From a bacterium (GTDB lineage: Bacteria; JAJVIF01; JAPKYR01): a stretch of 39,763 nt of DNA. The stretch is from NCBI GenBank assembly GCA_026394215.1, contig JAPKYR010000186.1:1-39763 (forward strand), given 5' to 3'. The notes under the pieces are model-generated. The model did not search any database and was not told where the DNA came from. It saw only the letters and a program-made list of their open reading frames with translations. Positions within the stretch are counted from its first letter, which is position 1. Every line of letters starts with the position of its first letter. Below, piece after piece: positions 7,550 through 9,390 of this stretch. Position numbers and translations under genes: made by a program.

Positions 7550-8245
7550 CTAGAACTCAAAATACGTCTCTCCGTACTCGCGATCAAAACCGGCGGCACC
7601 GACCCCGTTATTCTGGAAATACACTCTGCACATAACCTCGTCTAAATCAAATGAGAATCTCAGATTTCCGGGATTGCTGTCATCGAACCGCAACGGTTCG
7701 AAGGTATATGGATTTAACTCGCTTCCATCAAAAGGCCAGAAACCCTTATCCTTCATATCGTCTATTGACGTTGGCAGATCCTGATAAACGCGCCAGTACT
7801 GGAAGAATGAAAACTGAACTCTATATCGATAATTAGCGACCCGAAGATCAGAACCTGTATAATTTGTAGTTGAATACATGGATGACTCAAGATCATTTTC
7901 AAATTCCTGACCGTTCGGTAACCCGATATACAATATCACATGCTGGTTATCGACTGGCGTAATTATGATTTCACCGGGACCTCTTTCGACCGAATTATAA
8001 TTAAACGGCTCATCCGTTACTGGATTTACTAGATTCCCGGGAATCCAACCCGTAGCGTAAAGCTCATTTACTGAGCCGGGAAGGCTTCCCGTGTCCAAGT
8101 AGTAGTAATTTACTCCGCCGCCTATCAACGAATTAATATAGCTTATCCTGTTGATCTCCTCGTTCAACTCGCTGTCTGCCAGTGCCGGGTTCATTATTAC
8201 CAGGCAGGCAAACAGGATTATTATTGCAGTCAAATTCTTAAACAT
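7550..8245 (-). CDS. Exported protein with two pseudopilin-like modules
   Basis: 231 residues. The signal peptide (MFKNLTAIIILFACLVI, cleavage near ALA-D) is an ordinary Sec type, not a prepilin leader. The mature part carries two similar modules. One has YYYLDTGSLPGSVNELYATG followed by NPVTDEPFNYN. The other has YWRVYQDLPTSIDDMKDKG followed by LNPYTFEPLRF. Each resembles the C-terminal half of type II secretion GspG pseudopilins (short helix, LP-x-S, NP-x-T-x-EP). The missing prepilin motif means it probably does not enter a pilus as a normal pilin. A Shine-Dalgarno sequence AAGGAG precedes ATG 8245. It sits 15 bases after the Cys-rich gene and is very likely co-transcribed from the promoter at 8642-8669. 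Function unknown. Confidence 0.7.
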   Translation of the reverse strand: MFKNLTAIIILFACLVIMNPALADSELNEEINRISYINSLIGGGVNYYYLDTGSLPGSVNELYATGWIPGNLVNPVTDEPFNYNSVERGPGEIIITPVDNQHVILYIGLPNGQEFENDLESSMYSTTNYTGSDLRVANYRYRVQFSFFQYWRVYQDLPTSIDDMKDKGFWPFDGSELNPYTFEPLRFDDSNPGNLRFSFDLDEVMCRVYFQNNGVGAAGFDREYGETYFEF

Positions 8246-8260: not shown

Positions 8261-8608
8261 CTAGTATAGTTCTGAACACAATTTACGATAGGCAGAATAG
8301 GAATCGTTAACCCAGTCGCGCTCACATCCACACATGCCAAGTTCTTCGCAATCCTTCAGGATTGAATAGTATATAACCCAATTATCATCGCACGGCGGAT
8401 CATTAACAGTATAGTCATACCAGCAAATCTCAAAAAAGCATGATCTTGTGCAGCCAGTTTCCTGATTGCATATAACCAGAACCAATGACCCAATACAGCC
8501 TTCCACCTGATCAACGCAACAACTATCAGCCCTGACCGGCTGCTGGGCACCCATGACGAAAACCATCATTAACCCAATAAGGAATGAATAAGCCAGTTTT
8601 CTATTCAT
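8261..8608 (-). CDS. Cysteine-rich small exported protein
   Basis: 115 residues, not recognised. ATG 8608 is chosen over a longer frame because GGAGG lies nine bases before it. Residues 1-27 are a signal peptide (SFLIGLMMVFVMGAQQPVRA, cut before DSCC). The mature part has 12 cysteines in about 88 residues, an even number, including CC, C-x6-C and C-x-C spacings. This suggests a disulfide-stabilised extracytoplasmic domain. It is the first gene of a two-gene minus-strand operon with the pseudopilin-like gene. The promoter in front of it contains a G10 spacer (8642-8669), so its expression may switch on and off. Paired aromatic residues (WYDY, VIYY) suggest a beta-rich fold. No active-site motif is visible. 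Confidence 0.7.
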   Translation of the reverse strand: MNRKLAYSFLIGLMMVFVMGAQQPVRADSCCVDQVEGCIGSLVLVICNQETGCTRSCFFEICWYDYTVNDPPCDDNWVIYYSILKDCEELGMCGCERDWVNDSYSAYRKLCSELY

Positions 8609-8641
8609 TTTGATGCACCTCCTTTTTTTTATGTACATATA

Positions 8642-8669
8642 AATATACCCCCCCCCCGATAAATGTCAA
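8642..8669 (-). promoter_or_regulatory. Promoter with G10 homopolymer in the -35/-10 spacer (candidate phase-variable promoter)
   Basis: On the minus strand, TTGACA (8669-8664), a perfect -35, is followed by TTTATC plus ten G, then TATATT (8647-8642), a near-consensus -10. The spacer is 16 bases, one short of the optimum. Slippage of the G tract would change the spacer directly. It points at the Cys-rich/pseudopilin-like gene pair; the transcript would begin about 27 bases before ATG 8608. Confidence 0.75.
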
Positions 8670-8766: not shown

Positions 8767-8962
8767 AGTAGCCCGGGAAACCTTACAGAGACGATTTGAC
8801 AATTACCCATAGATGGCCCTTGGTTTCCCGGGTCCTAAGGTTGGAGCATAAAAAGGTCCCGGGAAACCGATTTCCACTTATAAAATTTGCAAGATAGTTC
8901 CTGTAAGGTTTCCCGGGCTACTAAACTCTCTAAAAATGCAGGAGCCGCCTGACGGCGGTTCC
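8767..8962. repeat. Nested inverted-repeat cluster (REP-like)
   Basis: A perfect 22-bp inverted pair, GTAGCCCGGGAAACCTTACA with one more base on each end, lies at 8767-8788 and 8901-8922. Inside it a second, imperfect pair GGTTTCCCGGG / CCCGGGAAACC lies at 8822-8832 and 8858-8868. A separate 9-bp hairpin, GGAGCCGCC-TGAC-GGCGGTTCC, follows at 8941-8962. The stretch 8670-9016 holds no gene. Confidence 0.75.
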
Positions 8963-9016: not shown

Positions 9017-9130
9017 ATGAACCCGTCAATCGCTGCATCGAGACGGACGGATAGTCAAATTGACAAGGTGATATATGAACTGTATGATCTGATAGAGGAG
9101 GAGATAAGGATAGTGGAGGGGGATATATGA
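9017..9130 (+). pseudogene. C-terminal remnant of a type IIG/Eco57I-like restriction-methylase
   Basis: A 37-codon frame whose last 30 residues (TDSQIDKVIYELYDLIEEE followed by IRIVEG) match the tail typical of Eco57I/TaqI-type restriction-modification enzymes and related N6-methylases (DxxIDxLVYELYGLTEEEIxIVEG). Nothing of the catalytic body lies upstream: an in-frame TGA stands at 8996 and a repeat cluster precedes it. Its stop overlaps the start of the DUF4258-like gene (ATGA), so it may still be translated and coupled to it. The match to the R-M tail is from memory of the family. Decay to a scrap is the simplest reading. Confidence 0.55.
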
Positions 9131-9390
9131 TGAAATCCATTCGACTTTCGAAACATTCTCAGGGATATTCGAGCAGGCGAGGATTCACGCTCGATGAAGT
9201 CATAAATGCGATCCACAAGTCAACATGGAAACCGGTCAAACTGGGCGTGAATTGTTTTGAGTGTTCTGAGGAGTATCCCTTCAACAGCGACTGGAATGGA
9301 AAATACTACAAAACAAAGCGCGTTCGTCCGATTTTCGAGGAAAGGGACTTGGAGATCATGGTCATTACCGTTTATACTTATTATTACTGA
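9127..9390 (+). CDS. DUF4258-like small protein (putative toxin-type partner)
   Basis: 87 residues starting at an ATGATG pair preceded by GGAGGGGG. The N-terminal part SIRLSKHSQGYSSRRGFTLD followed by EVINAI fits the DUF4258 pattern (a basic helix with SxHA-like and RRGxxxxEV motifs). The C-terminal strand pair RVRPIFEERDLEIMVITVYT fits its VVVItVY ending. Such proteins are small RelE/BrnT-like folds often encoded next to DUF2283 proteins, exactly as here (20 bases to the next start). Toxin activity is inferred from these associations, not from a catalytic residue I can identify. Two cysteines (Cys-x2-Cys) and an aromatic YYK segment in the middle are not typical. Confidence 0.65.
   Translation: MMKSIRLSKHSQGYSSRRGFTLDEVINAIHKSTWKPVKLGVNCFECSEEYPFNSDWNGKYYKTKRVRPIFEERDLEIMVITVYTYYY

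Follow-up and report, generated by a model that had tools for sequence, protein, structure and literature searches.

The window, a stretch of 39,763 nucleotides, contains a probable promoter on the minus strand in which ten consecutive G residues occupy most of the spacer between the -35 and -10 boxes. The arrangement of boxes and tract suggests a phase-variable promoter that slippage would tune in graded steps, as in porA and tp0126, a reading to which we give a probability of about 0.6.

Results

Promoter architecture and spacer length

Read from 8669 to 8642, the minus strand is TTGACA-TTTATC-GGGGGGGGGG-TATATT; on the plus strand the same elements appear as AATATA (8642-8647), C10 (8648-8657), GATAAA (8658-8663) and TGTCAA (8664-8669). 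The earlier note had described these boxes with their coordinates, a tract of ten G and a 16-nt spacer, and all of this proved exact on direct reading. After the -10 box come A8, the GGAGG motif and, at 8608, the ATG of a gene encoding a Cys-rich secreted protein. A homopolymer of at least eight bases thus lies between the -35 and -10 boxes, as in promoters of the porA/tp0126 type. The positions of all the features are collected in the table.

In a generic promoter scan the two boxes matched the consensus at 11 of 12 positions, which made them the joint best site of the region. The scan as a whole returned 6 sites against 5.3 in shuffled sequences, i.e. no excess overall, as would be expected if the boxes were fortuitous and transcription started elsewhere. 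We regard that explanation as hardly credible, since 11/12 boxes stand directly ahead of a ribosome-binding site and an ATG, two homologous loci carry a TTGACA at a matching distance (see below), and consensus promoters are clearly present in the genome of origin. In the latter, TTGACA-N14-20-TATANT was found at 54 sites compared with 11 for the reversed control, and promoters of this type are therefore real in this genome. From the sequence, the TTGACA and TATATT boxes very probably constitute a genuine promoter.

Among the 54 sites the commonest spacer was 17 nt (24 sites), the length that, as had been noted before, one additional G would produce at the window. It was followed by 16 nt (11), 19 nt (6), 14 nt (5), 18 nt (3), 20 nt (3) and 15 nt (2); spacers of 17 and then 16 nt were clearly above background, and those of 15 and 18 nt were near it. 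Tracts of G9, G10, G11 and G12 give spacers of 15, 16, 17 and 18 nt at the window, so that one-base changes carry the spacer across its optimum, as they do in the porA/tp0126 type. Since the genome prefers 17 and then 16 nt, the highest activity is expected with G11 and low activity with G9 or G12. On sequence grounds the assembled G10 allele should hence be active yet below its maximum.

Two other elements were observed in the vicinity. A plus-strand TTGACA-N17-TATGAT (9060-9088, 11/12) lies about 40 nt ahead of a small ORF (9127-9390). Nested inverted repeats around GGTTTCCCGGG/CCCGGGAAACC occupy positions 8767-8922, some 100 nt ahead of the promoter, with 36-nt arms that are 83% complementary and inner arms of 28 nt; a second copy of them was not found in the approximately 400 kb of genome checked.

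Features of the window promoter and its genes, and the f14 loci used for comparison
Feature	Position	Strand	Evidence or remarks
-35 box TTGACA, 6/6	8664..8669	-	sequence; TTGACA similarly far from the ATG at two homologous loci
Spacer, 16 nt, TTTATC + G10	8648..8663	-	sequence; spacing statistics of the own genome
G10 homopolymer, proposed slippage site	8648..8657	-	sequence; homologous loci without the tract
-10 box TATATT, 5/6	8642..8647	-	sequence and promoter scan
Shine-Dalgarno GGAGG, just preceded by A8 (8623-8630)	8618..8622	-	direct reading; C275 paralogue has AAAGGAGG at the same place
Cys-rich protein, 115 aa, 12 Cys, Sec signal peptide	8261..8608	-	start MNRK (MNRKLAYSFLIGLMMVFVMGAQQPVRADSCC...)
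Second secreted protein, 231 aa, two related halves, Sec signal peptide	7550..8245	-	
f14 loci L054, L128, L132, L133, L134	genomes G014, G408, G396, G407, G393		

The two secreted proteins

The ORF tool placed the start of the Cys-rich gene at 8638, upstream of the ribosome-binding site; this start is probably wrong for that reason, and 8608 was taken instead. The protein has a 39% identical paralogue on contig 275 of the same genome (G000:C275) and no match in Pfam or NCBIfam, and its structure model (pLDDT 50) was too poor for use. The second gene of the putative operon begins 15 nt after the stop of the first, and its product has homologues at G000:C275 (31% identity) and at locus G001:C477 of a genus mate (42-43%). 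This second protein is an internal duplication, whose halves align with E = 1e-4 in BLASTP and with 95% probability in a profile comparison. It had no match in Pfam, NCBIfam or PDB sequences, and a fold search with its structure model (pLDDT 85) recovered no PDB structure at E <= 0.001.

Gene order and leaders agree with the previous description, in which the promoter precedes genes for two exported proteins, the first of them Cys-rich. The same description had called the second protein pseudopilin-like, and this did not hold: the leader (MFKNLTAIIILFACLVIMNPALADSELNEE) is of the cleavable Sec type, the prepilin motif G|FxxxE is absent, and none of the sequence, profile or fold searches returned a match. 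An identity as a type II secretion or type IV pseudopilin was rejected on the same grounds. To call the two proteins surface antigens is a guess.

G tracts in the genome of origin

The genome (G000) is a 3.45-Mb draft of 321 contigs, 93% complete, in which the window is contig 300. It contains 16 runs of G or C of at least 9, where first-order composition predicts about 21, and 5 of at least 10, where it predicts about 5.3; two runs of 14 were observed where about 0.02 were expected, a clear excess. No genome-wide excess of G tracts of 9-11 was found. The existence of a G10 tract is thus unremarkable, and its position is what matters.

When both strands around the 16 tracts were examined for promoter boxes, the window scored 11/12 and the next best 9/12. 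The chance that any of the five runs of at least 10 falls inside a spacer of consensus quality is about 5e-4, or about 1.5% on the assumption of 1500 promoters, figures which are guides only as the site was chosen post hoc.

These counts bear on the possibility that the promoter is real and the G run in it fortuitous, i.e. that a young tract of near-constant or selectively meaningless length leaves the genes effectively constitutive. We consider this unlikely but far from negligible. The number of runs of at least 9 matches composition, and if about 10% of intergenic sequence is promoter (our estimate), the presence of one of about 8 intergenic tracts in such a place is unsurprising. However, the box quality at the window far exceeds that at the other 15 tracts, and a G10 tract can, for physical reasons, hardly avoid slipping at raised rates.

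The other G tracts of the genome were considered as sister switches and rejected, none having boxes above 9/12; the weak candidates were a G14 on C122 (ATAACA-19-TATAAA) and a G9 on C206 (TTTAGA-15-TAGAAT).

This G14 on C122, an intergenic tract at G000:C122:5577-5590 (L017:2978-2991), is far above the length predicted from composition and represents a second possible slippage site. A G14 on C11 (L009, around 3000) and a G11 on C30 (L010, around 2710) adjoin a common repeat like CGACAAGCCTTTGCTAAAGCTACGGCTTGC, perhaps a small element of mobile or palindromic type.

Homologous loci and age of the tract

A paralogous copy of the two-gene module lies on C275, with identities of 39-40% for the Cys-rich protein and 31-33% for the second protein. 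In G001, the only genus mate examined, the second gene occurs alone. The distance from TTGACA to the ATG is 61 nt at the window, 56 nt at C275 and 60 nt at G001:C477; by our own arithmetic from the rate of TTGACA in the window, distances that match to within 5 nt at both other loci would have a chance of about 6e-6. The G001 promoter is TTGACA-N17-TAGATT, and at C275 a clear -10 box is missing at 17 nt.

Comparison of the upstream sequences indicated that the G tract is absent from both homologous loci. It appears to fill a spacer that other members of the family possess without it. The tract looks recent for this reason and is not conserved by selection, which counts against the phase-variation reading and fits a fortuitous run. 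The simplest reading is that a pre-existing promoter spacer was turned into a G tract in the lineage of the window, its total length staying nearly unchanged. Neither a second copy of the locus nor its exact flank was found in viral contigs, and a sigma-factor scan of named genomes returned relatives with at most 42% identity.

The same comparison addresses two further explanations. As spacer sequence can affect promoter strength, a G-rich spacer might act through stiffness or DNA structure, or by binding a regulator, with no role for slippage. We find this improbable: nothing in the analysis pointed to it, both homologous promoters lack a G-rich spacer, and one run of ten G falls short of what a stable, looped intramolecular quadruplex requires. 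Even less probable is an artefact, whether poly-G from two-colour chemistry, a misassembly or a miscounted length. The assembly is a draft in 321 contigs and homopolymer counts may be off by one, but both sides of the tract are non-repetitive, many other assemblies carry similar tracts, and the agreement of the 61-nt distance with those of the homologues (56 and 60 nt) means that nothing large was gained or lost.

G-tract spacers in other genomes

Across 385 mostly unrelated genomes, the pattern TTGACA-N0-9-G8-N0-9-TATA was found at 18 sites in 18 genomes compared with 1 for the reversed control, and the C8 version at 7 sites compared with 2. In 386 mostly unrelated genomes, a set that overlaps widely with the first, a run of G9 or longer between TTGACA and TATA occurred at 15 sites and in none of the reversed controls. 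Real promoters outnumber reversed boxes in any case (TTGACA-N15-18-TATAAT, 239 compared with 28 in 12 of these genomes), so that the margin of 15 to 0 for G9 sites overstates the excess that a promoter-matched null would leave. The bias of G over C in runs of at least 9 (12 compared with 4) was not significant (p = 0.08). Recurrence of G tracts between such boxes beyond the reversed control argues against a fortuitous run at the window. In the class mate G003, TTGACA-AAAAT-G10-TGA-TATAAT precedes an ORF with a signal peptide that is cut by the contig end.

The products encoded behind the 15 G9 sites and the window (16 sites) were compared with those behind matched promoters of the form TTGACA-N15-18-TATAAT without a tract in the same genomes. 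G8 matches located in GC-rich DNA ahead of genes resembling mreB, gcvT and EF-Tu look like chance and were left out of this count; these genes were named by eye. Exported products were found at 8/16 tract promoters and 8/28 non-tract promoters (Fisher p = 0.14), or at 7/15 once two homologues were collapsed (p = 0.20); the counts depend on signal peptides called by a simple rule and by eye, with the raw calls corrected by hand in both groups. Export bias was dropped as support. The exported products of the window are therefore compatible with phase variation and no evidence for it, and the lack of a significant bias is in line with a chance run.

Locus L080 (G172:C1:2017872-2017901) has a G14 between TTGACA and TATA ahead of a short peptide, followed by a membrane protein gene. 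The peptide has a leader of the double-glycine type (LNEVELMTIDGG) and is possibly a bacteriocin.

In another family, f14, orthologous lipoprotein promoters differ in their tracts. G014 has TTGACATTTCT-G10-TATAATTTACAATAAGG where G393 has TTGACATTTCT-GGGGGAG-TATAATTTACAATAAGG, with nearly identical flanks; the other orthologues carry G11 (G408), G7 (G407) and GGGAGG (G396), and the G396 lipoprotein is 86% identical to that of G408. These sequences indicate that related species do differ in the length of G tracts placed in such spacers. For the window this is an analogy rather than proof; the f14 lipoprotein promoter itself makes a good candidate for phase variation in an uncultured family.

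Discussion

The preferred reading, that of a promoter graded by slippage, can be laid out as a sequence of steps. A sigma-70-type promoter would drive a two-gene operon for secreted proteins, with both genes presumably co-transcribed from these boxes, and a G10 tract would have taken over its spacer. Replication slippage in the tract would then shift the distance between -35 and -10 by single bases, and tract lengths would vary within the population. Expression is expected to follow spacer length: G9 (15 nt) would be nearly off, the assembled G10 (16 nt) intermediate, G11 (17 nt) strongest and G12 (18 nt) weak again. The population would thereby become a mixture of expression levels, on which selection may act.

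Phase-variable promoters with a homopolymer in the spacer have been documented mostly in host-adapted pathogens. We propose, tentatively and with some doubt, that promoters with G-tract spacers have arisen repeatedly and independently as slippage switches in uncultured bacteria without a known host. They would set graded levels of exported proteins, in the manner of a rheostat, and immune evasion by pathogens would not be their main use. If so, the class to which the window belongs would contain several such promoters, the G10 promoter of G003 being another, and the f14 lipoprotein promoters would already document a difference in tract length between orthologues. A convincing demonstration in an uncultured lineage, combined with the recurrence of the design in unrelated genomes, would point to slippage-tuned promoters as a bet-hedging device of general use. 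The window promoter is of moderate interest, for its lineage and for the recurrence of its design.

The window promoter is likely a further case of the known homopolymer-spacer promoters and would work like those of porA and tp0126. In porA of Neisseria meningitidis, 11G gives high levels at the cell surface, 10G 2-fold lower and 9G 13-fold lower levels (PMC3639595). As at the window, a tract of 9-11 G lies inside the sigma-70 spacer of a gene for an exported protein and one G alters the spacing; the graded effect documented for porA (PMC3639595, PMC3899988) is proposed for the window promoter. The two differ in that porA encodes a porin whose variation and immune selection are documented in a human pathogen, whereas the window promoter precedes the gene of a small secreted Cys-rich protein and belongs to an uncultured lineage. 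In Treponema pallidum, the OmpW homologue tp0126 likewise has a poly-G between -35 and -10 and is transcribed best with a 17-nt spacer (PMC7864442), the same optimum that one more G would bring about at the window; there, the effect was shown with length assays and reporters, whereas at the window it is predicted from the sequence. The poly-G of tprL in the same species ranges from 7 to 11 within isolates (PMC7864442). In fetA/frpB of Neisseria, a homopolymer between -35 and -10 also alters expression (PMC5320596); it consists of C instead of G, and the gene encodes an iron-regulated receptor.
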